The notes under the pieces: model-generated
Database searches by the model: none
Told to the model about the DNA's origin: nothing
The model's input: the letters and a program-made list of their open reading frames with translations, nothing else
Program-made: the position numbers and the translations under genes
Assembly: GCF_004114615.1 (NCBI RefSeq)
Contig: NZ_CP035300.1
Span: 2,914,001-2,978,000, forward strand
Direction: 5' to 3'
Length of the DNA stretch: 64,000 bases
From: Dyella sp. M7H15-1
GTDB taxonomy: Bacteria; Pseudomonadota; Gammaproteobacteria; Xanthomonadales; Rhodanobacteraceae
In this document: piece by piece, positions 31,682-45,515 of the stretch
Position numbering within the stretch: position 1 is the stretch's first letter
Layout of the letters: every line of letters starts with the position of its first letter

Positions 31682-33109
31682 TCAACCCCTTCGCAGCAAA
31701 ATCTCCAGCATCTGCCTGAAACGCTTGCCATAAGGCGGATTGAGCAGCCTGGTAGCATTGATGCGGGTTTGATGAAACACCGGTTTCATGTGTGAGAACG
31801 TGCGAAAGCCTGCTTCGCCGTGATAGCCGCCCATGCCTGAAGGGCCGACGCCGCCGAAAGGCAGGTTGTGCTGAACAGTGTGATAAAGCGTGTCGTTGAG
31901 GCTGACGCCGCCGGCATGCGTGCGTGTCAATACCTGGTCGATTTGCGCTTGATCCTGCTCGAACAGATAGAGCGCGAGTGGACGCGAGCGATGAGCGATG
32001 TAATCGATAGCGTCGTCGAGGTCGTCGTAAGGCACCAGTGGCAGCAGTGGGCCGAAGATTTCTTCCTGCATCACCGGCATGTCATCGGGCACGTCGGTAA
32101 GCAGTGTCGGTGTGAGCAGGCGTTGCAAAGGGCGGTCTTCCACTCCGGCCAGTTTTGCGCTTTGCGCACCAGCCTGCACCGCGCTATCGCGCAGATGGGT
32201 CAGGCGTTGATAATGGCGATCGGTGGCGATGCTGGCGTATTGCTTGTTGTTGGCAAGATCGGGATACAGTCGTGCCGTCGCATCGCGAGCCGCCGCGATA
32301 AAGCGCGGTACGTCAGCGCGAGGGAGCAGCACATAATCGGGCGCGATGCAGGTTTGACCGGCGTTGACCATCTTGCCGAACACAATGCGTTCCACCGCAT
32401 GTTCGAAGCGTGCGCCGGGGCCAATGATCGCCGGCGACTTGCCACCGAGTTCCAGTGTGACCGGCGTGAGATGGGTCGAGGCTGCGCGCATGACATGATG
32501 GCCGACTGTCGTCGAGCCGGTAAACAACAGATGATCGAACGGCAGGCTGGCGAACGTCTGGCCTACCGATGCATCGCCATTCACCACGATCACTTCGTCC
32601 GGCTGGAAATGTCGCGCCACCAACTCCGCGAAAAACTGCGAGAAACATGGCGTATATTCGCTCATCTTCACCATGGCGCGATTGCCCGCGACCAGCGCAT
32701 CCACCAGCGGTCCCACAGCCAGAAATAGCGGGTAATTCCAGGGCACGATGATGCCGACCACACCCAGCGGCTGAGGACGCATCTCCGTACTTGCCAGCAA
32801 AAAAGCGAGGCTTGCCCATTCACGCTTTGGTTTCATCCAGCGGCGACCATGGCGTAGCGCGTGGCGAATGGCCGATAGGCAGGGAAAGATCTCCAGCATC
32901 TCCGTTTCTTCGCGCGGGCGACAGCCGAAGTCGGCATGGATCGCATCGGCGATTTCCTGCCGATGCTCGCGGACCACCGCATCGAGCGCACCCAGGCGGC
33001 GGGCGCGGGTAATCCAGTCTGGCAGTGGTTGCTGCGCCTGCACTTCACGCAGACGTTTGAGTTCGCTTGGCAGGTCAAGGCGATCAGGTTGATTCATTGG
33101 CAGTGTCAT
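31682..33109 (-). CDS. Aldehyde dehydrogenase, coniferyl-aldehyde-dehydrogenase-like (class 3)
   Basis: This NAD(P)-dependent enzyme oxidises aldehydes to acids. The 475-residue length without a long N-terminus matches class 3/coniferyl-type ALDHs, which also act on fatty aldehydes. VVGIIVPWNYPL (NAD site), LELGGKSPAIIGP (general-base Glu) and GQTCIAPDYVLL (nucleophile Cys) are intact. Starts at 33109 (MTLPMNQPD) and 33097 are both possible. It lies seven bases past a broken TonB-receptor tail and on the same strand as the PKS genes, so it may process a lipid aldehyde from that pathway. That link is inference. Confidence 0.9.
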   Translation of the reverse strand: MTLPMNQPDRLDLPSELKRLREVQAQQPLPDWITRARRLGALDAVVREHRQEIADAIHADFGCRPREETEMLEIFPCLSAIRHALRHGRRWMKPKREWASLAFLLASTEMRPQPLGVVGIIVPWNYPLFLAVGPLVDALVAGNRAMVKMSEYTPCFSQFFAELVARHFQPDEVIVVNGDASVGQTFASLPFDHLLFTGSTTVGHHVMRAASTHLTPVTLELGGKSPAIIGPGARFEHAVERIVFGKMVNAGQTCIAPDYVLLPRADVPRFIAAARDATARLYPDLANNKQYASIATDRHYQRLTHLRDSAVQAGAQSAKLAGVEDRPLQRLLTPTLLTDVPDDMPVMQEEIFGPLLPLVPYDDLDDAIDYIAHRSRPLALYLFEQDQAQIDQVLTRTHAGGVSLNDTLYHTVQHNLPFGGVGPSGMGGYHGEAGFRTFSHMKPVFHQTRINATRLLNPPYGKRFRQMLEILLRRG

Positions 33110-33376: not shown

Positions 33377-33976
33377 CTAGTAGGCGTACGCTTGCGTCCA
33401 GCGAACGGTGAACGATGCGTCCGATTGGCAAGCGACGCTGGCGAGATAATCAGGCCCCATGTCCAGGTCGGCGATGCGATAGGGCGCATCGGGTCCGTTT
33501 GCGACCACGTCAATCGGTGCGGGGGATGCAGGCAGCGGGAATTGTCGCAACGGCAGGTCCAATCCCAGGCCGGTGGCTTTTGCCAGCGCCTCTTTGCGTG
33601 TCCACCATTGCAGTCCTTGGACGTGACGTGTCGCGGATGGCGCTTCAGCGTATTGGCGGCGTTCCTGTTTCGACATGAAGCAGTTCGCCAGTGCATCGAT
33701 GTCGATGGCGCGTTGGCTTGGTTCGATGTCGATGCCGATGTCGCGGAACAAGGTCACGGCAAGCAGCAGGCGTTGCTGGCAATGCGATAGCGAGAAACGA
33801 ATCGGACAATCGGGCAGGTCGATGCGCGGCGCGCGCCGAGGCGGGCGAATCAGCGGAACGCGATCCAGTGGCAATCCGAGTGTTTTCCCGGCGATGGCGC
33901 GCACCATCGCATAAGCGGGTTCCGAGCCGGCGCTAGGCCAGTCGTAGAGATCGACGACGTCCATGCAAAGCTTCAT
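33377..33976 (-). CDS. 4'-phosphopantetheinyl transferase, Sfp type
   Basis: This enzyme transfers phosphopantetheine from CoA to the Ser of carrier proteins. The 199-residue protein shows the superfamily motifs: IRFSLSHCQQ (P1-like), DIGIDIEPSQRA (Mg-binding Asp/Glu) and WWTRKEALAKATGLGL (WxxKEA). The start ATG 33976 (MKLCMDVVDLYDW) overlaps the megasynthase stop as ATGA; longer frames upstream lie inside that gene. Tight coupling to the megasynthase implies it activates the ACP encoded at 39748-41034. Confidence 0.92.
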   Translation of the reverse strand: MKLCMDVVDLYDWPSAGSEPAYAMVRAIAGKTLGLPLDRVPLIRPPRRAPRIDLPDCPIRFSLSHCQQRLLLAVTLFRDIGIDIEPSQRAIDIDALANCFMSKQERRQYAEAPSATRHVQGLQWWTRKEALAKATGLGLDLPLRQFPLPASPAPIDVVANGPDAPYRIADLDMGPDYLASVACQSDASFTVRWTQAYAY

Positions 33977-36900
33977 GCCAAGGCAGGATCGGCCCGTACG
34001 AGCGGCGTCGGTACGGCATGAAAGCGGCCCGTGTCCCATTCGAATTGGGCCCACTCAATCGGCATGATGCCGGCGATTTCCAGCAGTATCCGGCCATCCG
34101 GCGCCAGCGCGACCAGGCGTGGCGAATTCGCTCCCTGGTGATAATGCAGATGCAACGCCGAGCCGTAAGCACGATACAAGTCGGCATCGTTACCCGTGGT
34201 GTAAACGTCGATGCGTGCCACGCCACCGAATACGGATACCGTTTGGCGCCCACCGTGAAGCGACAAGAAGCGCGTGCGTGCCAAGGCGTCCATGGCGATG
34301 CTGGGAATCACGAACTGACGCAGGCTCGGGTCTTTCTCGGCAGCGGAAAGATCGAGTGATGCGCGGATGCCGTCATGGTGTTCCCGTAGATTGCAGATCG
34401 CATGGAACGCATGGCGTAGCAGGATCGGGCCACCGTCCAGGCAATACGGGTCCAGCAGCGATTGGCCGGTATCACGCGAGTGATCGGACGGCCAAACGGC
34501 GTTACACGAATGCGGCGCGGCGCCAAGTTCGACCGTGATGGCTGCATGTCGTCGGGGCGCGCCGAGGTGGTAACCATCCTTGGTCACGGTCTGGCTTTCG
34601 ATAAACACCTGCACGACGGATAGCCCCGCGGTAGCGCTGACGAGGTCGGCGGTCACCGTGATCTCGGCAGGCCACCACGCGACAGGGCCACGCAAGAAAT
34701 GGGAGAAAACCACGTCGCGAAAGGCATGGATGGTCAGCTCTGGTGCCAACGCCTTGGCGGCTTCCGCAGCAATTTCCAGGTGAATGGTTCCGGGTATGCA
34801 TGGCCGCCCGTCGACCAGGTGATCGAGCAGGTACGCATGCCGATCCAGCCCAATCGTGACGTGCCAGCTTCCGTGCGTTGCAGTCTCGGTTTTTTCGTCG
34901 ATAAAGCCGTACCTGCGGGAAGCGTCTGCAACGGATGCGGCATCGGCGAGTTTGCCGAGCGTGCGAAACTCAGCTTTCCCCAGATAAATGCTATGGGCGT
35001 CGCGCGGTGCGGGCTCGGCGATATCGTGCAGGAAATGCGCTGTGGCGTGTTCCGTCGACATGCCGCTAAACAATTCTCTGCGCTGCATGAGGCCGCGGAA
35101 CACCGGCTGCGCGGCAAAGCCGGCCTCCTTCCACAGCGGCCAGGAGAGCGTGAATTCGTCGCTGCCGCGCACAATGTGCGCATGCTCGGCCGCGGTGCAA
35201 AGAAAACCGTTGGCCGATGTGTAGTCCTGATCGCCTTGCGCGCCGATGTAGGCGGAAACCGAGCCGATGTTGCACCAGATTGCGGGCGGTGCGTTGGCCA
35301 GGGCGTGCTTGAGGTTCAAATACCCTTTGATCTTGATGTCGCGAACGGTCTTGAAAACATCCAGCGGCTTTCCCTTGAGCGACGTGCGGTGCACGCCCGC
35401 GCCGTGTACCAGCAGATCGATGTGGCTCTCCGCGCCAAGCACTTGGCGCATCGTGTCATCGACGGCTTCGGCGTCGGTGGTGTCGCACGCCAGGTAATGC
35501 ACGTGCTCCGCGCCGCAGTACCGCCGCAAGGCAGCCAGGTTACGAAGCTTGAGGGCTCCGTCTTGCAGGCGATCGAAGCGTCGGCTCAATGCGGCAATCG
35601 ACACATTTGGTTCACACTCGCGCCATTGTTCGAGCAGTACCGCCCGCCCCGCAGCAAGCATCGCTACATCGGCTTCGTCGGGCAGCGGCTGACTGCCTAG
35701 CAGCCACAATCGCAGCGGTGTACGTGCGGCCAGAGTGAGCAGCATCTGTGCGGTGATGCCTCTGGCGCCACCGGTTGCCACCACCACGGGCGCGGTTCCA
35801 AGGCGTGTTCCAGCTTCGCCGTCTTTGCTGTCGGGGGCGGCCTGAAATGCCAGCTCAAAGCGCTTGCCCGCGATGTGATAGGTGACGGGATGGCGCCGCG
35901 CTAGCAACATTTCTTCATTCAGCGCCTGCAGGCCGGGTTCCAGTGACTCGATGTCGCTGACCAAGCTGCAAACCAGGCATCCATGCAAATCCCACGGCAG
36001 GCTTGCTGCAAAACCGGTGAACAAACCCACGTGCGGTTTGGGTGTGCCGCGTTCAAACGCCGAAAGCAGCAGGATGCCGAACGAACCGTGTTCGTTCAGC
36101 GGTTCGCGGTGCCGTTGCAGCGCCAGGAAACAGCAGTCGTGCAAGGCTTCGGTGCGCTTGGGCAACGGCAGCGCGCCGCCGGCAACGATCACCCGGATGT
36201 GCCGGATGATGTGCTCGCCGATGGCTGCGGCGTAGTCGTCTTCGGTCATGCGGGCACTCGCCAAAAGAACCAGGCTGTCGTTGCGTGCGATAATCGCGTG
36301 CGCGATCTCGACGCTGTCGGTCAAGGTGATCGTTTCCGCTGCATGGGTGACCAGCGGCGCACGAGCCTTTTCCGTTGGCGCAAGCTGCATGACCTGGATA
36401 TGCCGCTGCACGATATCCGTTTGGGCATCGCTGACCCGATCGGGCGCGTGGGTCTTCGCCGGGGTGATGCGCAACGCGAGACGATGTTGCATGTCCTGGC
36501 ATGCAAGTACTTTTGGCGTATCGCGCGTCATGGCGCGCAACAACCGCAGTGCGCTGTCGGCGCCCAGCATCGTGCGGTGTGGTGGAATGCTATCGGCTGC
36601 GTGGTCTTGCAAGGATGCATCGGCGTCAGGCATGCCGTGATGCAAGACCTCGAGCTGGGCCAGTTCGGCGATGCCGTGGGCGCGGGCGATCGAGCGCCGC
36701 GTCAGCGCGAAGCCGAACGCGCCTTCGGCGGGCACTGCATCCGGCGCGACGGTCTTCGTCATCTCCGGGTCGGTATAGGCGTTGAGTGCGAACACCAGCG
36801 CGGCGTCGATGTCTCCCGCCTGTACGTAGCGCGCGGCGACCGCCAGCGCGCATAGCGCCGAATCGCGTCCGCCGTCGATCGCCATGTTGGGGCCGCGCAG

Positions 36901-39660
36901 GTTGAGCAAAGCTGCTACGCGAGCTGCGGTGACATTGGGCATCAGCCCGGGCAGGGTGTCCATGTTGGAAGGCATGGTCCGTGCGCGAGCGTGCGCGGCC
37001 AACTGCGCGTGCTGTTCCGGTGCAAGCACGTGCTTGAGCGTGTGCAGGTGGCAGCGCAGCGCGTAACGTGCGCCCGCCTGCGCAGCGCCCATGTGACCAA
37101 GAAACACGCCCACTTTGTCCGGCTGCTGCAACCACGCGTTGCCGCTGCCGGCGGCCAGCATGTCGGCACAGCGCATGATGATCAATTGCGAACGATCCAC
37201 GGCTTGCATGGCCGCCGGGGTCATGCGCACGTCCTGCGGTGGCGGCAAGGGGTAGTCGGTGAACATCCCCGATGGCGCATCGCGTCCGCTCTGCAGCCAG
37301 GCGAGTATCCGTTCCCGCGATGGATCGCCCGGTAAATGGGCCGCCCAATCGATCAGTACCAGCGGATCGTCGTGCTCGGCCTGCATGCGATGTGGCCGAG
37401 GCGTTTCTCCCGGCAGCGGCGGTTCCTGGATCAGCGCAAAAGCATTGGTGCCGCCGAATCCAAAACCGGATATGCCCACGATGCGTGGCCGGCGTGGCTG
37501 GCGGGGCCAGGCTTCGGCGATGCGCGGAATGCGCAGGCTTGGCGCCGTCGATGCCGGGTTTTCCGGGCTACCAAAGCGGGGTTGCGCGGGAATCGCGTCA
37601 TGCTGCAACCCAAGCAGTGCATGGATGACCGATACCGTGCCCGCCGCCCAACCGGTGTGGCCGACCAGGGCCTTGTTGGACGTGACCGTCCAATGTGCAG
37701 TGTCCGACGCCACTGCTCGCAGGGCGTCCAACTCGGAAAGGTCGCCGCGCGGCGTGCCGGTGGCATGGGCGATGATCCAGTCGACATCCGCCGGTGCGAT
37801 GCCCGCCGCGGAGAAGGCGCGCGCGATGGCGAGCTGCTGCCCTTGCGTGTTGGGCGCGTTGATCGCCTTGCCGCGCCCATCGGAACTGGTGCCTATGCCG
37901 GCAAGCATGCCAAGCACCGTATCGCCGTCTTCGACCGCTTGTTTATAGCGCTTGAGCACCACGACCGCTGCGCCATCGGAAAAGGCCGTGCCATTGGCAT
38001 CGCTGGCGAAACTGCGCACTTCATTGCTGGCGCTGATGCCCTGCAGTTTGGAAAAAAGTGTGAGAAAGCGTGCGCCGAGCGCAAAGCTGCCACTGCAGAC
38101 CGCGATGTCGGCATCGCCCGTGCGCAAGGCTTTGGCGCCCAGGTCGATCGCATAGAGCGAAGAGGAGCAAGCGGTGTCGATCACGACGATCTCGGTGTCG
38201 GCGGGAAGGATGCCGTGGATCGCCAGCGACGGAAGGCGATGCGGCAGCACGCTGCTGAGGTCATCCACGGCGTGCGGATAATGGCGCTTCAGTGCTGCGT
38301 GAATCTGCTCATCTGGCAGCAAGCGATCGACAGCTTTCGCGACCAGGGTTTCGTCCAGGTGCTGGTTTCCATCCAGCGCCGCACCCACGACGAACTGAAA
38401 GCGATCCGAATTGCGCGACGCGACGCCATCCAGCGCCTGCAGCACCGAGTGCCGCAGCCATCGCACGCTATGCTCATCGGGTGTCAGTGCGTCGGCGTTC
38501 AATTCGGCCTGCAATCGCGGGTGAGGTTCGAAATGGCGGAGATAGCCGGCTTTTCTCGCGTAATAGCGATCTTCTTCGTTGGCGTCGGCAGACCAAAAAT
38601 CATCGATGTCGTGTCGCTCGCCGGGCTCGGTGAAAACGTTCTTGTCCTGTTGCAGTAATTGCCAGAATGCTTCGGGCGAGCTGGCGCCCGGCACGGCCAT
38701 ACCCATGCCGACGATGGCGATGAGCGGTTCGGTTTTTTCTGCTGCCGGATCCTTCGTTGCTTGAGCCTGCAGCGGCTCGGCGGGTGTTGGCGATACGTCG
38801 GCAACAGTTATCGATGGTGGCGGCAAGTTGGGTTCTTGCGGCGCGGTGCCGCACTCCGGCGGAAAGTCCGGAATTTGCACGAACGCCATCGACTGCGCGG
38901 GTGCAAGCGATCCTAGGCCACCATCCGCGCAGACGATCTGGCCCGTCATCCAGCGTGCATCGTCGCTGACCAGCATGGCCACCAGACGTGCCAGATCGTC
39001 ATGTTGGGTGGTTCGTCCCAATGGCGTGATGTGCTCCATGGCGTGCAACATGTGCGCGCCCATAGGGAAGCTGCGAAACGCGGCACCATCGATCGGCGCA
39101 CAGGACGCGGCATTGACTCGGATGCCGTAGGGGCCGTATTCCACCGCCAGATAACGCGTAAGGGATTCCAATGCGGCTTTGGACGTGCCGACCGCCGAAT
39201 ACTTGCCGACGACGTGCTCGCCGCCGGGCGAGGAAATATTGACGATAACACCGCTGCGTTGCGCCACCATCATCGGCAGCGCATGCATGCAGCATAGGCG
39301 CGCGCCATGGAAATTGACGTCGTGAATGCGCCGCCAGTCGCGTTCGGTCAGCTCGCTGAAATCGTGGAAGGCGCCGATGGCCGCGTTGTTGACCAGGATG
39401 TCGAGGCGGCCGTGGCGTTCGCGGATCTGGCCGAACATCTCGGCTACCTGCTCAGCCTTGGCCACGGACGCGCGCGCAGTCTCCACGGACCAGCCGTTCT
39501 GGTGCATCTCGTTGCAGGTCGATTCCGCGCTTTCGCGATCGTGAAAGTAGTTGATGACGATATGCGCACCGCGCATTGCCAATTCGATGGCGATCGCGCG
39601 GCCTGCGGACCGGCCACCGCCGGTCACCAGTGCAACGCGCCCTTGTAGCGAAGCAGTCAT
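33973..39660 (-). CDS. Iterative PKS/FAS-like megasynthase: FabL-like ER, KS, KS-degenerate (CLF-like), KR, DH
   Basis: A 1895-residue multidomain enzyme. Residues 1-255: SDR domain with the Tyr-x6-Lys motif of enoyl-ACP reductases (KYSAVGTSKAALESLTRYLA, Tyr154/Lys161), closest in wording to FabL. 311-755: ketosynthase with Cys498 (DTACSSS), His632 (AHATGT) and His668 (VGHTG). About 765-1065: second KS-like domain with the Cys position replaced (AIDGGRDSAL, Arg932), like the chain-length-factor of PUFA synthases. 1100-1270: probable KR structural subdomain. 1288-1500: KR with TGGARGIT, Ser1467 and Tyr1480. 1596-1870: dehydratase with HLVDGRPCIP (His1614) and LDGGP (Asp1742). No ACP or AT is present; these are on the next gene. 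With that gene and the PPTase it forms a complete reducing cycle. Product unknown, most likely a lipid or polyketide chain. Domain borders are estimates. Confidence 0.85.
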   Translation of the reverse strand: MTASLQGRVALVTGGGRSAGRAIAIELAMRGAHIVINYFHDRESAESTCNEMHQNGWSVETARASVAKAEQVAEMFGQIRERHGRLDILVNNAAIGAFHDFSELTERDWRRIHDVNFHGARLCCMHALPMMVAQRSGVIVNISSPGGEHVVGKYSAVGTSKAALESLTRYLAVEYGPYGIRVNAASCAPIDGAAFRSFPMGAHMLHAMEHITPLGRTTQHDDLARLVAMLVSDDARWMTGQIVCADGGLGSLAPAQSMAFVQIPDFPPECGTAPQEPNLPPPSITVADVSPTPAEPLQAQATKDPAAEKTEPLIAIVGMGMAVPGASSPEAFWQLLQQDKNVFTEPGERHDIDDFWSADANEEDRYYARKAGYLRHFEPHPRLQAELNADALTPDEHSVRWLRHSVLQALDGVASRNSDRFQFVVGAALDGNQHLDETLVAKAVDRLLPDEQIHAALKRHYPHAVDDLSSVLPHRLPSLAIHGILPADTEIVVIDTACSSSLYAIDLGAKALRTGDADIAVCSGSFALGARFLTLFSKLQGISASNEVRSFASDANGTAFSDGAAVVVLKRYKQAVEDGDTVLGMLAGIGTSSDGRGKAINAPNTQGQQLAIARAFSAAGIAPADVDWIIAHATGTPRGDLSELDALRAVASDTAHWTVTSNKALVGHTGWAAGTVSVIHALLGLQHDAIPAQPRFGSPENPASTAPSLRIPRIAEAWPRQPRRPRIVGISGFGFGGTNAFALIQEPPLPGETPRPHRMQAEHDDPLVLIDWAAHLPGDPSRERILAWLQSGRDAPSGMFTDYPLPPPQDVRMTPAAMQAVDRSQLIIMRCADMLAAGSGNAWLQQPDKVGVFLGHMGAAQAGARYALRCHLHTLKHVLAPEQHAQLAAHARARTMPSNMDTLPGLMPNVTAARVAALLNLRGPNMAIDGGRDSALCALAVAARYVQAGDIDAALVFALNAYTDPEMTKTVAPDAVPAEGAFGFALTRRSIARAHGIAELAQLEVLHHGMPDADASLQDHAADSIPPHRTMLGADSALRLLRAMTRDTPKVLACQDMQHRLALRITPAKTHAPDRVSDAQTDIVQRHIQVMQLAPTEKARAPLVTHAAETITLTDSVEIAHAIIARNDSLVLLASARMTEDDYAAAIGEHIIRHIRVIVAGGALPLPKRTEALHDCCFLALQRHREPLNEHGSFGILLLSAFERGTPKPHVGLFTGFAASLPWDLHGCLVCSLVSDIESLEPGLQALNEEMLLARRHPVTYHIAGKRFELAFQAAPDSKDGEAGTRLGTAPVVVATGGARGITAQMLLTLAARTPLRLWLLGSQPLPDEADVAMLAAGRAVLLEQWRECEPNVSIAALSRRFDRLQDGALKLRNLAALRRYCGAEHVHYLACDTTDAEAVDDTMRQVLGAESHIDLLVHGAGVHRTSLKGKPLDVFKTVRDIKIKGYLNLKHALANAPPAIWCNIGSVSAYIGAQGDQDYTSANGFLCTAAEHAHIVRGSDEFTLSWPLWKEAGFAAQPVFRGLMQRRELFSGMSTEHATAHFLHDIAEPAPRDAHSIYLGKAEFRTLGKLADAASVADASRRYGFIDEKTETATHGSWHVTIGLDRHAYLLDHLVDGRPCIPGTIHLEIAAEAAKALAPELTIHAFRDVVFSHFLRGPVAWWPAEITVTADLVSATAGLSVVQVFIESQTVTKDGYHLGAPRRHAAITVELGAAPHSCNAVWPSDHSRDTGQSLLDPYCLDGGPILLRHAFHAICNLREHHDGIRASLDLSAAEKDPSLRQFVIPSIAMDALARTRFLSLHGGRQTVSVFGGVARIDVYTTGNDADLYRAYGSALHLHYHQGANSPRLVALAPDGRILLEIAGIMPIEWAQFEWDTGRFHAVPTPLVRADPALA

Positions 39661-39747
39661 GGGTCGGCTCCTGCGGCAGGTCCGCCTTCAAGCGCAAGCT
39701 GAGCGATTGGGGCTGGAGCTTGCGCAGTGTTTCGTGTGCTATGACCG

Positions 39748-41034
39748 TTAATGAATTTGCGGGTTTTTCAGGTGATCTTGGATATAGCCGGCGACCGACT
39801 TCAGGGTCGGGTAGTTGCCGATGCGAAAGCCATCGGAAATGCCCGCGGCGTGGTAGCGCTCAATCGCACGCGCGAGCAACTCGCTTTGCTTGAGTGAATC
39901 GATGCCGAGGTCCGATTCGAGATCGGCCGAATCCGTTAGGTACTGCTGCGGATAGCCCAGCCATTCCGCATAAAGGTTGCGTAGTTCGGCAACCAGATCG
40001 GCCGGTTTGCGTTCTGGCGGTTCCTCCTGGCGTACGTGCGTGTCTCTCGATGCCGAGGCAGGTAAAGCGACGATTTCGGGTGGCACGGGGAGGGATGGCA
40101 TGGTTTGCGCGCGGTGCGGTGCGTCGCTGAAAGTGCGTGCCTGCACGTGCGGAACACATTGATTGACCAGCCTCGTCAGCAAGGAGGTGGCACTGCATTC
40201 GATAAAGTCATCCACGCCCCAGGCATGCAGGGTCCGGATGGCATCCATGAAACGCACCGGTTGCAAGAAATGCCCGGCGATCCGCCCGGCAATGTCGGTG
40301 GCCTTGTCGTAGAAAGCTCCGTCAATCGGCGAATAGACCGCGCGTTCCGGCGTGTTGATGGTGATGGGGCGGATCGCTTCGTGGAATTGCCGTGCGGCGG
40401 CTTTTAGCAAGGGGTTATGGAAGGGGATGGGCGAAGGCAAGGTGATGCACTTGATGCCTAGGGCGGTAGCGACGGCGCTCACGCTTGCCAACGCCTGTGG
40501 TGTTCCGGACAGCACGGTCTGGCGCGGTGCGTTGGCGGCAGCAACAGCTAGATCGGCATGTCCGATGGCAGCCACCAAGTGCAGCGCACGTTCCATGCCG
40601 ATCGCTATCGCCATCATGCCGCCGGCGGTCGATGGGTCCGCCTGCGCCGCCTTGGTGCGTGCGACGACGATCTGCGCGCCATCGTCGACGCTCCATGCGT
40701 TGGCGAGCGTCAAGGCGGGAATTTCACCCAGGCTGTGGCCGATCAGGATGGTGTCGCGCGGCGCACGCTCGGCGGCCAGATGCCCGAACGCAAGTGCTTG
40801 CGCGTAAAGCGCAAGTTGCAGGCGCATAACATCGTTTGCCAAGAGGCTGGCTATCGGAGGTGAATAGGGATCCAGCAGCAAGGGCGACATGGGCGCTTGC
40901 GCGTGTTGTCTTGCCACGTTGTCGGTGGTGGTGAGGATGTCCGAAACGGCAGATAGTTGCGCGAAGGCTTGCAGACATCCTGGTGCATACGCGCCCTGGC
41001 CTGGAAAGAGTAAAGCAGTAGTCGTTGCGTGCAT
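39748..41034 (-). CDS. Acyltransferase-acyl carrier protein didomain (AT-ACP)
   Basis: The 428-residue partner of the megasynthase, encoded 87 bases upstream of it on the same strand. The malonyl-type AT spans residues 5-300, with LLFPGQGAY, nucleophile Ser101 in GHSLGE, Arg126 (VVAR, expected to hold the malonyl carboxylate) and His206 (PFHNP). A Pro-rich linker follows, then one ACP at residues 345-425, with phosphopantetheine Ser380 in DLGIDSLKQSE. Loading of extender and the growing chain therefore happens here, in trans to KS, KR, DH and ER. A single ACP contrasts with the tandem ACPs of PUFA synthases. Confidence 0.9.
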   Translation of the reverse strand: MHATTTALLFPGQGAYAPGCLQAFAQLSAVSDILTTTDNVARQHAQAPMSPLLLDPYSPPIASLLANDVMRLQLALYAQALAFGHLAAERAPRDTILIGHSLGEIPALTLANAWSVDDGAQIVVARTKAAQADPSTAGGMMAIAIGMERALHLVAAIGHADLAVAAANAPRQTVLSGTPQALASVSAVATALGIKCITLPSPIPFHNPLLKAAARQFHEAIRPITINTPERAVYSPIDGAFYDKATDIAGRIAGHFLQPVRFMDAIRTLHAWGVDDFIECSATSLLTRLVNQCVPHVQARTFSDAPHRAQTMPSLPVPPEIVALPASASRDTHVRQEEPPERKPADLVAELRNLYAEWLGYPQQYLTDSADLESDLGIDSLKQSELLARAIERYHAAGISDGFRIGNYPTLKSVAGYIQDHLKNPQIH

Positions 41035-41293
41035 GACACATCCTTGACGTGATGACGACTAGGGTAAGGATTATCCAAAGACGACCTGTTTTCTCTTTGA
41101 GAAAGACGGGTGTGTTTGGCGTAACGAAAAAGAGGGACACATTTGAAAGTGAGAACGGGTTCCCATGTTGCATCCAGCCCTTGTCAAAACCTGCATGGAC
41201 CATCGCTTGATGCTGTGACCTTGATGCTGCGACGTTGCCTCATGCAATGCTGGATCATCGCGCCAGGTATCGCTGGCAAACGGAGCGTGCCGT
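41035..41293. promoter_or_regulatory. Divergent control region of the PKS locus
   Basis: 260 bases between the AT-ACP start (minus) and an SDR (plus). It holds TTTCTC-TTT-GAGAAA (41090-41104), an operator-like inverted repeat near the AT-ACP start. It also holds a tandem 14-base direct repeat TTGATGCTGTGACC / TTGATGCTGCGACG (41207-41234), which differs at two bases. No regulator gene is adjacent. Confidence 0.45.
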
Positions 41294-42199
41294 ATGTCGA
41301 TGCGTGTACAACATCTTGAAGGCCAGGTGGCGATCGTTACCGGTGCGTCGCGCGGGCTGGGGCGCATTTACGCCGAGAAGCTTGCCTCGCAGCGCATGAC
41401 CGTGGCGTTGCTGGCGCGCGATCGTTTCGCACTGGATACGGTCTCGGAACATATCCATGCGGTGGGGGGGAACGCTGTCGTTATCGAATCCGATGTCGGT
41501 GACCAGGCCTCCATTGCCGACGCGTTCGCCCAAGTGGATGAGCGTTTGGGACGCGTTGATCTGCTGATCAACTGCGCCGGCGACACGCCCGCCGTGGGCC
41601 AGGCGTGGGATATCGACCATGCACAGTGGTGGCGCACGATGGAAGTGCACGTGCGCGGAAGTTTTCTGTGCATGCAGGAAGCGATGCGACGCATGGTTGT
41701 CAGCGGTGGCGGCCGCATCGTCAACCTTGCCAGTCGGGCAGGTGCTCCGCGCTGGGCCACCGTGTCGGCTTACTCGGTGGCCAAGGCCGCCATCATCAAG
41801 CTGACCGAGAACGTTGCCGAGGAGGCGCGCGAAAAAGGGATATGCGTTTTCGCCTTCAACCCCGGTGTGGTGCAAGGCGTTGGCATGCTTGAAACCGCGA
41901 GCCATGTGGCGACGGAGCCTGGTACGGTTTGGGCGGATCTCGGCGACTGGTTTCGCCGAAGAGGCGAAACGGGACACTTGGTTTCGGCCGAGCGGGGTGC
42001 GGAGATCATCGTGGCCTTGGCGAAAGGCGAGTGCGATTTTCTCAGTGGACGTTACCTGGCGGTTGGCGATGATTTTGCCTCCTTGCGTAAACAGGCGCGT
42101 ATGATCGAGAACAGCGACGTGTTGACCATGCGCATACGGGAAGTCGATTGGATAGCCCGAAAGCAGCCGGCAGAGGTCTCTGGGGCTGGGTTGCGCTAA
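41294..42199 (+). CDS. SDR-family oxidoreductase, divergent to the PKS genes
   Basis: This 301-residue short-chain dehydrogenase has TGASRGLG cofactor loop, INCAG, catalytic Ser (NLASRAG) and YSVAK (YxxxK). A C-terminal extension of about 50 residues follows the usual SDR core. cggag precedes the ATG at eight-base spacing. Its shared promoter region with the AT-ACP/megasynthase genes suggests a tailoring or reducing step in the same pathway, but that is inference from position. Its ordinary YxxxK contrasts with the Tyr-x6-Lys of the SDR domain in the megasynthase. Confidence 0.87.
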   Translation: MSMRVQHLEGQVAIVTGASRGLGRIYAEKLASQRMTVALLARDRFALDTVSEHIHAVGGNAVVIESDVGDQASIADAFAQVDERLGRVDLLINCAGDTPAVGQAWDIDHAQWWRTMEVHVRGSFLCMQEAMRRMVVSGGGRIVNLASRAGAPRWATVSAYSVAKAAIIKLTENVAEEAREKGICVFAFNPGVVQGVGMLETASHVATEPGTVWADLGDWFRRRGETGHLVSAERGAEIIVALAKGECDFLSGRYLAVGDDFASLRKQARMIENSDVLTMRIREVDWIARKQPAEVSGAGLR

Positions 42200-42296: not shown

Positions 42297-45200
42297 TCAC
42301 TCGCCGATCGTCAGCAACGAGGCGTTGCCACCTGCCGCTGTGGTGTTGATGGTGAGCGTACGCTCACCCGCAAAACGCAACAGATAGTGCGGACCGCCGG
42401 CTTTCGGGCCGGTACCGGACAGGCTTTCGCCCCCGAACGGCTGCACGCCGACCACCGCGCCGATCTGATTACGGTTGACATAGCAGTTGCCGACGCGGGC
42501 GTGGCTACGAATGTATTCCACGGTGTCGTCGATGCGGCTGTGCACACCGAGGGTGAGGCCGTAGCCGGTGCCGTTGATGGCGTCGATGACCTTGGGCAGT
42601 TCCGCACCCTTCCAGCGGATCACGTGCAGCACGGGGCCGAACACTTCGCGCTTGAGGATGTCGAGCGATGGGATTTCATACGCGCGCGGTGCGAAGAAGG
42701 TGCCGTTGCCAGTGGTGGCCGGATCGAGCTTGGCTTCGGCGATCTTCTTGGTTTCCTTGTCCATGCGTGCGGCATGGTCGTTGAGGATTTTCAGTGCGTC
42801 TTCATCGATCACCGGACCCACGTCAGTGGAGAGTTGGCCCGGATCGCCCACCTTCAGTTCGGCCATGGCGCCAGCGAGCATGCCGATCACCTTGTCGGCG
42901 ATGTCTTCCTGCACGAACAGCACGCGTGCGGCGGAGCAACGCTGACCGGCGGACTGGAAGGCGGAGGCGATCACGTCCTTGACGATCTGCTCGGGTAGGG
43001 CGGAGGAGTCGGCGATCATCGCGTTCTGGCCGCCGGTCTCGGCGATCAGGGCGGCGATCGGTGCGTTGCGCGCGGCAAGCGCGCGGTTGATCGCCCAGGC
43101 GGTTTCGGTGGAGCCGGTGAAAGCGACGCCGGCCACGCGTGGATCTTTGGTGAGCGCCGCGCCAACCACGGCGCCATCACCCGGTAGGTATTGCAGTACG
43201 TCGGTGGGTACGCCCGCTTCGTGCAGCAATTTTATCGCGGCATAGCCGATCAGGCTGGTTTGCTCGGCGGGCTTGGCGATCACGCTGTTGCCGGCAGCCA
43301 GAGCAGCGGACACTTGGCCGAGGAAGATCGCCAACGGGAAGTTCCACGGGCTGATGCAGACGAATACGCCGCGACCGTTGAGAAAGAGCTGGTTGCTTTC
43401 GCCGGTCGGGCCAGGCAACTGTTCCGGATGGCCGAACAGACGACGCGCCATCGCAGCGTAGTAACGCAGGAAGTCGGCCGCTTCGCGGATTTCGGCGATG
43501 GCGTCGGGCAAGCTCTTGCCGGCTTCGCGTACGCACAGTGCGATGAATTCGCTGCGGCGCGCTTCGAGCTGGTCGGCGGCATGCTCAAGAATGGCAGCGC
43601 GGCTGGCGGCCGGAAGACGGTCCCAGTTCGGTTGCGCGGCTACGCCGTTGGTCAGCGCTTTGTCGACCAGTGCGGCATCAGCGCTGACATAGCTGCCGAC
43701 AACGTCGCGACGGTCGGCTGGATTGGCGACCTGCACGGTCGGGCCGTTGCCCTGGGCGCCCGGCACCAAGGCCATGGCATTCCACGAGCCGGACTTCGCA
43801 TTAACCGCCTCGGCGAGGGCCTTCAGTTCATTGTCGTTGGAGAAGTTGACGCCCATGGAGTTCTTCCTGGATACCGAATTGGAATCTTGCGCAAGCGCAA
43901 AATGGTCACCGAAGAGATTGATCGGCAGCAGAATACGTGGATGTGCATGGCTGCCATGATGGGCAGTGGCGAAGCGGCGCACTGTTTCGCAGGGATCGGC
44001 CACCAGGTCGCGCACCGGTAGCGTTTCATCCACCACACGGTTGACGAAGCTGGTGTTGGCGCCGTTTTCAAGCAGGCGGCGCACCAGATACGGCAGCAGG
44101 TCTTCGTGCGTGCCAACCGGCGCATACACGCGGCAGGGTACGTTGAGCCCGCTTTTATCGGTTTGGGGTGTGCCGATCACTTCGGCGTAGAGATCCGTGC
44201 CCATGCCGTGTAGACGTTGGAATTCGAACGGACGGCCGCGCGCAATGTGATGCGCGGCGGCGATGGTGTGCGCGTTGTGTGTGGCAAACTGCGGATAGAT
44301 CAGATCGCTGCCCGCGTCGAACAGCTTATGCGCGCAGGCCATGTAAGAGACGTCGGTGTTCGGCTTGCGCGTATACAGCGGATAGCCGGACAGGCCAAGC
44401 TCCTGTGCACGCTTGATTTCGGCATCCCAGTACGCACCTTTCACTAGGCGCACGTACCAGCGGCGATCAGCGGCACGGGCGGTTTCGATCAGCCAGTCGA
44501 TCACCAACGGCGTGCGCTTGGAGTAAGCCTGCACCACGATCCCTAAGCCATTCCAGCCTTGCAACGAAGGATGCGCGAAAACGTCGCCGATGATGTCGAG
44601 CGAGAGTTCCAGGCGATCGGCTTCCTCCGCATCCACGGACAACGCAATGCCTTGTTTCATCGCGAGCTGCGACAGTTCCAGCAGTTTGGCGGTGAGATCG
44701 CGGCGTGCGCGTGTGCGGTGGGCGACTTCATAACGCGGATGCAGCGCGGAGAGTTTCACAGAGATCGACGGCGCATCCGTGTGATTGGCGAATGGCCCGC
44801 GCCCGCCGATGGCGGCGATGGCGTTGCGGTAATCCTGCTGATAGCGCTCGGCGGTTTCGCGGGTCAGTGCCGACTCGCCCAGCATGTCGTAGGAATAGCG
44901 ATAAACGGCATATTCGGGTTTGGCGCAACGATCGAGCGCTTCGTTGATGGTCTGCCCCATCACGAACTGATGCCCCATGATGCGCATGGCCTGGCGCACG
45001 GCCAGGCGAATCGCTGGTTCGCCCGCGCGGCCGACCAGGCGGCGCAGCGCACCGGTGAAATCGTGGCGGGTTTCCTCGGCCAGGTTCACCAGCTTGCCGG
45101 TGAGCATCAAACCCCAGGTGGAGGCGTTGACGAACAGCGACTGGTTTTGGCCCATGTGCTTCTTCCAGTTCGCGTCGCCCAGCTTGTCGCGGATCAGCTT

Positions 45201-45515
45201 GTCTGCGGTGGCCCTGTCCGGAATGCGTAGCAGGGCTTCGGCCACGCACATCAGCAGCACACCTTCCTCGCTGGAAAGGTCGTACTGGCGCATGAAGGAT
45301 TCCACCGCGCTCTGGTCTTTGGCACGCGCACGCACGCGGGTAACCAGGTCGGCGGCCAGGTCGATCACCTTTTCGCGTTCGACCGGCGGCAGGGTGGCTT
45401 GAGCGAGCAGGTCGTTGACGGCTTCGGTCTCGTCGCGCAGCCAGGCAGCAGTAATGCGTGCACGGGCCGGCTCGGTGCCGGTCGGCAGTTCGGGTGTGAG
45501 AATAGGTTGGGTCAC
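42297..45515 (-). CDS. putA: Bifunctional proline dehydrogenase / P5C dehydrogenase PutA
   Basis: PutA oxidises proline to glutamate in two steps with FAD and NAD. The 1072-residue protein has an alpha-helical arm, the PRODH barrel (ISVKLSALHPRYE, YVRLVKGAYWD, FATHNAHT) and the P5CDH domain (SPWNFPLAIF, FTGSTETAWAI, nucleophile Cys860 in GQRCSAARVL). It lacks the N-terminal ribbon-helix-helix DNA-binding domain of E. coli PutA, so it should not be a repressor. The start MTQPILTPELPTG is accepted; there is no better upstream ATG. Confidence 0.96.
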   Translation of the reverse strand: MTQPILTPELPTGTEPARARITAAWLRDETEAVNDLLAQATLPPVEREKVIDLAADLVTRVRARAKDQSAVESFMRQYDLSSEEGVLLMCVAEALLRIPDRATADKLIRDKLGDANWKKHMGQNQSLFVNASTWGLMLTGKLVNLAEETRHDFTGALRRLVGRAGEPAIRLAVRQAMRIMGHQFVMGQTINEALDRCAKPEYAVYRYSYDMLGESALTRETAERYQQDYRNAIAAIGGRGPFANHTDAPSISVKLSALHPRYEVAHRTRARRDLTAKLLELSQLAMKQGIALSVDAEEADRLELSLDIIGDVFAHPSLQGWNGLGIVVQAYSKRTPLVIDWLIETARAADRRWYVRLVKGAYWDAEIKRAQELGLSGYPLYTRKPNTDVSYMACAHKLFDAGSDLIYPQFATHNAHTIAAAHHIARGRPFEFQRLHGMGTDLYAEVIGTPQTDKSGLNVPCRVYAPVGTHEDLLPYLVRRLLENGANTSFVNRVVDETLPVRDLVADPCETVRRFATAHHGSHAHPRILLPINLFGDHFALAQDSNSVSRKNSMGVNFSNDNELKALAEAVNAKSGSWNAMALVPGAQGNGPTVQVANPADRRDVVGSYVSADAALVDKALTNGVAAQPNWDRLPAASRAAILEHAADQLEARRSEFIALCVREAGKSLPDAIAEIREAADFLRYYAAMARRLFGHPEQLPGPTGESNQLFLNGRGVFVCISPWNFPLAIFLGQVSAALAAGNSVIAKPAEQTSLIGYAAIKLLHEAGVPTDVLQYLPGDGAVVGAALTKDPRVAGVAFTGSTETAWAINRALAARNAPIAALIAETGGQNAMIADSSALPEQIVKDVIASAFQSAGQRCSAARVLFVQEDIADKVIGMLAGAMAELKVGDPGQLSTDVGPVIDEDALKILNDHAARMDKETKKIAEAKLDPATTGNGTFFAPRAYEIPSLDILKREVFGPVLHVIRWKGAELPKVIDAINGTGYGLTLGVHSRIDDTVEYIRSHARVGNCYVNRNQIGAVVGVQPFGGESLSGTGPKAGGPHYLLRFAGERTLTINTTAAGGNASLLTIGE

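Follow-up and report, generated by a model that had tools for sequence, protein, structure and literature searches.

We analysed a 64,000-nucleotide stretch of the genome of Dyella sp. M7H15-1 (NZ_CP035300.1), referred to as the window, and all coordinates are positions within it. The window contains a compact locus for a putative fatty-acid or polyketide synthase. Three genes lie on the minus strand in the order AT-ACP protein, megasynthase, and phosphopantetheinyl transferase (PPTase), and a gene for a short-chain dehydrogenase/reductase (SDR) diverges from them across a 259-bp gap. The AT-ACP protein contains an acyltransferase (AT) and an acyl carrier protein (ACP). The megasynthase reads enoyl reductase (ER), ketosynthase (KS), chain-length factor (CLF), structural ketoreductase subdomain (psi-KR), ketoreductase (KR), and dehydratase (DH), the last resembling the DH of polyketide synthases (PKS). 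The features of the synthase are as follows, with the evidence in brackets.

33973..39660, minus strand: megasynthase ER-KS-CLF-psiKR-KR-DH, 1895 residues (Pfam, PDB profiles, AlphaFold2, Foldseek)
38896..39660, minus strand: putative FabL-type SDR enoyl reductase domain, residues 1-255, Y154-X6-K161 (Pfam, NCBIfam, PDB, alignment)
37381..38733, minus strand: KS domain, residues 310-760, C498/H632/H668 (Pfam, alignment, structure model)
36406..37350, minus strand: KS-like CLF domain, residues 771-1085, Arg932 at the aligned nucleophile site (alignment, structure model)
35806..36402, minus strand: psi-KR structural subdomain, residues 1087-1285 (AlphaFold2 model; Foldseek to full-length PKS ketoreductases)
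35026..35802, minus strand: KR domain, residues 1287-1545, K1443/Y1480/N1484 (Pfam, alignment, Foldseek)
34021..34905, minus strand: PKS-type DH, residues 1586-1880, H1614 and D1791 (Pfam, alignment, AlphaFold2, Foldseek)
39748..41034, minus strand: AT-ACP protein, 428 residues, AT about 1-305 and ACP about 345-420 (Pfam, PDB sequence search, alignment)
33377..33976, minus strand: Sfp-like PPTase, 199 residues from ATG 33976 (open reading frame, Pfam, start inspection)

The open reading frames reported in a first-pass annotation of this DNA are present where it placed them, and the overlap that it described between the PPTase and the megasynthase stop is a 4-bp ATGA overlap. Its start for the PPTase is corrected here: translation most likely begins at ATG 33976 rather than at GTG 34054, back to which the frame is open.

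The KS and the CLF form a pair in the middle of the megasynthase. Pfam matches include ketoacyl-synt at residues 314-575 plus a second stretch, and Ketoacyl-synt_C at residues 584-693. The KS residues Cys498, His632, and His668, together with the Lys, are kept in 40/40 aligned rows (window counted). In the CLF, Arg932 stands where the motif position predicts the nucleophile, and Cys is found in that column in 1/40 rows. We note that the profile alignments (A4, 43 rows; A5, 40 rows; window included) hold a subset of the related loci described below, numbered with the prefix L, and that L030-L032 are absent from them. The AlphaFold2 model of the KS-CLF pair has a predicted local distance difference test score (pLDDT) of 87.6 and a predicted TM-score (pTM) of 0.93. 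Its first Foldseek match is the KS-CLF of PfaC (6riw, which we take to be from Moritella marina), with an E of 1.3e-52 and a query TM-score (TMq) of 0.80 across the whole pair; the remaining 49 listed matches have TMq below 0.5. The KS profile scores 339 bits against 6riw in one stretch, and the sole higher scorer, 7zma, reaches 478 bits summed over two stretches. The structural likeness of the model to PfaC indicates that a KS-CLF didomain of PfaC type is present.

The N-terminal domain matches adh_short_C2 in Pfam (residues 17-249, 2.6e-68). Among SDR models FabL is the top scorer, with 231 bits against the NCBIfam FabL equivalog cut-off of 328, and the best SDR match in the PDB is also a FabL, the enoyl-ACP reductase of Bacillus subtilis (3oic, 1.6e-47). 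The two proteins share the fold family and the Y-X6-K spacing, whereas the domain in the window is fused to a megasynthase and scores below the FabL cut-off. Y-X6-K is found in 48/50 aligned ERs (window counted; L058, L072, L037, and ERs under 60% coverage left out), the remaining two carry F for Y, and Y-X3-K occurs in 0/50. Y-X6-K is the spacing rule for enoyl reductases given in the accessible text of a review of these enzymes (PMC9260719). The six residues between Y and K in the window include no Met, as in the FabL type, which lacks the FabI methionine. Judged from its sequence, the N-terminal SDR domain is a predicted FabL-type enoyl reductase.

Residues 1087-1895 were modelled by AlphaFold2 with a pLDDT of 86.9, and the psi-KR, KR, and DH are visible in the model. 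The psi-KR, of ~200 residues, sits between the CLF and the KR and is an addition to the domain order of the first-pass annotation. Pfam places the KR at residues 1343-1512 (9.9e-28) and PKS_DH_N at residues 1588-1657 (6.7e-9). In Foldseek, the KR resembles bacillaene KRs (5ktk, 4j1q) and the DH resembles the curacin CurF DH (3kg6). K1443, Y1480, and N1484 of the KR and H1614 and D1791 of the DH are invariant in 43/43 rows, window counted. The AT-ACP protein matches Acyl_transf_1 (2.8e-21) and PP-binding (2.9e-6) in Pfam, and Ser101, Arg126, and His206 of the AT and Ser380 of the ACP are kept in 54/54 rows, again with the window counted. The PP-binding stretch in this protein is single and the megasynthase has none in Pfam, so tandem ACPs are absent. 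The PPTase matches ACPS (4.8e-14); PPTases are encoded at two places in the genome, one of them this locus, which points to a dedicated PPTase. A release enzyme, whether thioesterase or terminal reductase, was not found among the locus proteins.

Taken together, the Pfam, NCBIfam, and PDB searches and the structure models uphold the domain calls of the first-pass annotation (ER, KS, degenerate KS, KR, DH, AT, ACP, and Sfp-type PPTase), including KR, DH, and ER in hidden Markov model searches. The chain-length-factor-like partner of the KS also stands, and its likeness to PfaC is now structural. Because of the profile E-values, the predicted structures, and the conservation of the two-gene unit, a chance origin of the architecture is excluded.

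The same architecture is found in other bacteria. When a collection of species genomes was scanned with a KR-DH profile, 167 candidate stretches yielded at least 72 loci, of which 19 are other PKS or PUFA-like genes (PUFA, polyunsaturated fatty acid) and at least 53 belong to one family; these are lower bounds, as the scan sought two short motifs only. With five plasmid loci the family contains at least 58 loci (L028 and L037 are from the same species), and its hosts are Actinomycetes, Burkholderia/Paraburkholderia, Methylocapsa, and Azospirillum. Among the matches listed by a tblastn search of plasmids, a single record, from Paraburkholderia ginsengisoli (34.6%), covers more than 80% of the query; Streptomyces and Azospirillum have partial homologues. 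Members of the family are defined by a KS-CLF/KR-DH megasynthase that starts with a FabL-like ER and is directly preceded by an AT-ACP gene; the window shows this arrangement. ER, KS, CLF, and KR lie in one frame in 41 of the 58 loci, KS-CLF is apart from KR-DH in 12, four have no ER in frame, and one is a fragment. The AT-ACP neighbour, whose conservation the first-pass annotation had proposed to check, is directly upstream of the synthase in 53/58 loci; of the five exceptions, four are truncated at the edge of the locus, and in L031 the AT is fused to KS-CLF. The scope given earlier, Rhodanobacteraceae-like bacteria, is not retained: one of 233 genomes of the host's family has the locus, and the architecture is found in many Actinomycetes and in relatives of Burkholderia.

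In a KS tree, the family KSs form a 58-row clade, separate from the PUFA-like KSs and those of other PKSs, with L031 outside. The tree is quick and midpoint-rooted, carries a long-branch warning that includes the window's branch, and has no characterised Pfa KS in it; its rows are 94 of the 95 KS domains found, with L037 left out and short KS pieces not kept. The KS of the window sits alone on a long branch, next to an actinomycete clade of 17 rows (Shimodaira-Hasegawa-like approximate likelihood ratio test, SH-aLRT, 89), away from the Burkholderia and Methylocapsa rows. Streptomyces sp. BHT-5-2 (L030) has a Cys-less KS-CLF-KR-DH protein and, nearby, a divergent separate KS-CLF protein (L030:10209-12539 (-), L030:14899-19800 (+)), an arrangement that looks as if the condensing role had moved to the separate protein.

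The likeness to PUFA and secondary-lipid synthases that the first-pass annotation had noted is borne out, as are the differences in domain order, single ACP, and reductase type. With Pfa synthases (PfaC KS-CLF, 6riw) the locus shares the KS-CLF didomain fold, the KS profile, a separate AT, and a dedicated PPTase. A KS-CLF structurally closest to PfaC with separate AT and PPTase could belong to a true Pfa synthase producing methylene-interrupted polyunsaturated fatty acids, but we consider this very improbable. The window has a FabL-like SDR in place of the flavin enzyme PfaD, a PKS-type DH in place of FabA-like DH/isomerases, its single ACP on the AT protein, and its KR and DH on the KS-CLF protein. 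A Pfam scan of the locus proteins gave no FabA-like DH/isomerase, the DH matching PKS_DH_N and the CurF DH instead, and the six locus proteins scanned, to which the PfaD search was confined, gave no match to a PfaD-type flavin ER. Its KS lies outside the PUFA-like KSs in the tree. In the accessible text on type A, pfaA carries 4-6 tandem ACPs (PMC3098273). Since it is without tandem ACPs, DH/isomerase, PfaD, and a Pfa-like KS grouping, the locus works like a PUFA/secondary-lipid synthase yet is not a standard member.

Other known systems also differ from the locus. Secondary lipid synthases of types A-T are presented in the available portion of Shulse and Allen 2011 (PMC3098273) as iterative hybrids of fatty acid synthase (FAS) and PKS in which KS, CLF, AT, ACP, KR, ER, and PPTase are variously fused, and that portion describes no type with a fused SDR ER or with the order ER-KS-CLF-KR-DH plus AT-ACP. 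In its available portion, a 2026 survey of hybrid PUFA-like clusters (PMC13291983) describes no such arrangement, and the terms SDR and FabL are absent from the main text of the survey. The swf mono-modular PKS/FAS of sponge symbionts likewise consists of a single module and is expected to make a saturated chain, but it has KS-AT-DH-ER-KR-ACP on one protein, according to excerpts of its description (PMC3908369). The best NCBIfam model for the whole megasynthase, NF045894 (PKS_plus_SDR), scores 310 bits against a cut-off of 1740, with its best stretch in the KS. No synthase or characterised pathway of this architecture was found in the open-access literature searched, which was judged largely from abstracts and leaves most subscription journals outside.

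We consider it probable that the genes at 33377-41034 form a self-contained type I fatty-acid/polyketide synthase that works iteratively and makes a reduced acyl chain. The PPTase would arm the single ACP of the AT-ACP protein, and the AT would load malonyl units onto it. The KS, paired with a Cys-less CLF as in PfaC according to the model, would condense these units repeatedly, and the CLF would shape the chain-length pocket. The KR, DH, and fused FabL-like ER, with their intact catalytic residues, would reduce each beta-carbon. The ACP would end up carrying a straight acyl chain, saturated or reduced in part, which would then be released by the AT or through transfer to an acceptor of the host.

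The genes beside the relatives' synthases bear on this interpretation. They were grouped by all-against-all comparison, and Pfam was run on one representative per group. Genes of the wax ester synthase/DGAT family are present in three loci (L033, L040, L053), which form an actinomycete subgroup inside the 17-row clade sister to the window in the KS tree; a search of the window's own genome for this family gave no match, nor did the control of the same search. The Azospirillum locus L031 has the same activities rearranged, with three tandem ACPs and two adjoining fatty acid desaturases. Burkholderia-type loci carry an FtsX permease (6 loci), a LolA-like protein (5 loci), a flavin monooxygenase (FMO; 8 loci, and one further locus cut short), a cytochrome P450-KR fusion (by Pfam in L028), and, in 7 further loci, KR-bearing frames downstream of the synthase. 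We counted the position of some relatives beside lipid genes (wax ester synthase/DGAT, desaturases, FtsX/LolA-like) in favour of an acyl chain as the product.

Several observations weigh against this assignment. The Streptomyces/Micromonospora subgroup carries P450, Rieske (21 loci), ketosynthase III (KSIII; 18 loci), and methoxymalonyl-like genes, which suggest specialised metabolites rather than a membrane lipid; its neighbours also include an O-methyltransferase, acyl-CoA and 3-hydroxyacyl-CoA dehydrogenases, and a HAD protein, presumably the set expected for methoxymalonyl-ACP. Some cycles may bypass the ER, and the sequence cannot tell whether each cycle ends in full reduction; the specificity of the AT for malonyl-CoA is one that we infer. 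The nearest relative differs between the KS tree, where it is the actinomycete rows, and whole-protein BLAST, which scores highest for Methylocapsa L034 (1093), followed by Burkholderia L061 (1077) and Amycolatopsis L033 (1059). In L030 the KS Cys of the KS-CLF-KR-DH protein is gone, so at least one member does not function as a condensing enzyme. No product is named for any family member in the open-access literature searched, with subscription journals mostly outside. The locus could instead encode a programmed reducing PKS that uses ER and DH in some cycles only and makes a polyene, hydroxylated, or branched specialised metabolite. This is a possible but somewhat doubtful explanation: the tailoring-type genes of the distant Streptomyces/Micromonospora subgroup, the P450-KR fusion and FMO of the Burkholderia group, and the PKS type of the DH speak for it, whereas in the window no tailoring gene or exporter adjoins the synthase, one SDR aside, and the actinomycete subgroup in the window's sister clade (L033, L040, L053) has wax synthase genes instead.

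Three further features of the relatives were observed. The Streptomyces/Micromonospora loci L029, L060, L062-L066, L069-L071, L074-L084, and L095 share a conserved version of the synthase, many with KSIII, P450, Rieske, and the methoxymalonyl-like set. The fusion protein in L028 (L028:21036-25070) is a 1344-residue P450 fused to a KR region related to the synthase KR, and its last ~220 residues have no significant match to Pfam or to the KR-DH profile. A DUF4345 membrane protein adjoins the PPTase in a Paraburkholderia locus (L028:30726-31130) and in the Azospirillum locus (L031:10071-10469).

The synthase genes are flanked by the following features.

41035..41293, strand not applicable: divergent intergenic region between AT-ACP and SDR, 259 bp (sequence)
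41294..42199, plus strand: divergent SDR of Y-X3-K type, tie to the synthase uncertain (open reading frame, Pfam, comparison with relatives)
42297-45515, strand not stated: putA (comparison with same-genus genomes)
31682..33109, minus strand: aldehyde dehydrogenase, taken as an ancestral neighbour outside the cassette (positions relative to putA in relatives)

Among the genomes searched or sampled from the host's family, class, and phylum, the synthase is seen in this genome alone. Among the matches listed for 80 relatives, no other genome has a full-length synthase match. At E<=1e-70, 0/232 other genomes of the family match, leaving this genome alone among 233. The class sample (369 genomes) gave 0/368 other genomes matching at full length and 12 matching in part, and the phylum sample (398 genomes) gave 0/397 at E<=1e-90, although Burkholderia-type members occur in the genome scan; these genome sets overlap. 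The 12 gammaproteobacterial partial matches (E<=1e-40) were rejected as members: they cover at most 118-672 of 819 KR-DH profile positions, their best scores are 150-218 bits each against 863 for the window, and they were taken, uninspected, as KRs of other PKSs. Because the cassette is in this genome only among the family, class, and phylum genomes searched, its horizontal acquisition is likely.

The neighbourhood itself is older. putA is 91-95% identical in 14/15 same-genus genomes, with no match in the fifteenth (86% complete). An aldehyde dehydrogenase homologue of 79-82% lies 7-12 kb from putA in 5/12 stretches examined, one of 69-70% lies at 0.1 and 6 kb from putA in 2/12, and none is seen in 5/12 (one of them only 9 kb long). 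Since putA is conserved and the genes after it differ, the synthase occupies a variable stretch of an old neighbourhood, between putA and the aldehyde dehydrogenase, where the gene set would have been placed upon acquisition. The stretch between these two genes holds different genes in related genomes (L153-L160), and gene exchange may have recurred there. Base composition was uninformative on transfer, as the cassette genes have a GC content of 0.61-0.63, similar to putA (0.63), and no insertion footprint was seen at the cassette edges, only weak repeat pairs. A solitary cassette, found once among 233 family genomes when many relatives have more cluster genes, could be what remains, decayed or silent, of a transferred cluster whose tailoring and release genes are gone. 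We regard this as unlikely: all checked catalytic residues are intact, the frames are open, the gene junctions are close, and the base composition matches putA.

A broader reading, for and against which we find the balance even, is that AT-ACP plus ER-KS-CLF-KR-DH constitutes a class of its own among iterative bacterial acyl-chain synthases, so far undescribed, distributed over different phyla and feeding many pathways. Such a class would join chain-length control by KS-CLF, as in PUFA synthases, to PKS reducing domains and a FabL-like ER, its chains would go to wax-like lipids, oxidised and exported lipids, and methoxylated metabolites, and the window would be its bare form, with none of the extra genes of the relatives' loci. 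If our acyl-chain assignment is true, the locus is a compact three-gene, all-in-one acyl-chain synthase in which a fused CLF may set chain length and a fused FabL-like domain does the last reduction. It would then offer a simple system in which to study chain-length counting by a CLF, as well as an attractive part for engineering, and would put a name to a PKS type now listed under generic annotations; three annotated family records bear only names such as 'SDR family oxidoreductase' and 'type I polyketide synthase'.

The remaining neighbours appear less closely tied to the synthase. The aldehyde dehydrogenase was rejected as a pathway enzyme, as it occurs near putA in relatives without the cassette (7/12 stretches examined), and it looks like old backbone outside the cassette. 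A simple scan of the intergenic region 41035..41293 gave no sigma-70-like site. The divergent SDR, whose conservation the first-pass annotation had also proposed to check, was rejected as a conserved partner: nothing in the relatives' loci clearly corresponds to it, the best matches there being only 29-34% identical, and at E<=1e-30 only 2/30 relatives match, at 37%. Its association with the synthase is uncertain. A second SDR in the same genome (L170:10387-11409, about 3.4164 Mb) is 46-48% identical to it and adjoins helicase and RelA/SpoT genes and a short frame that reads like a transposase, for which no family search was made.

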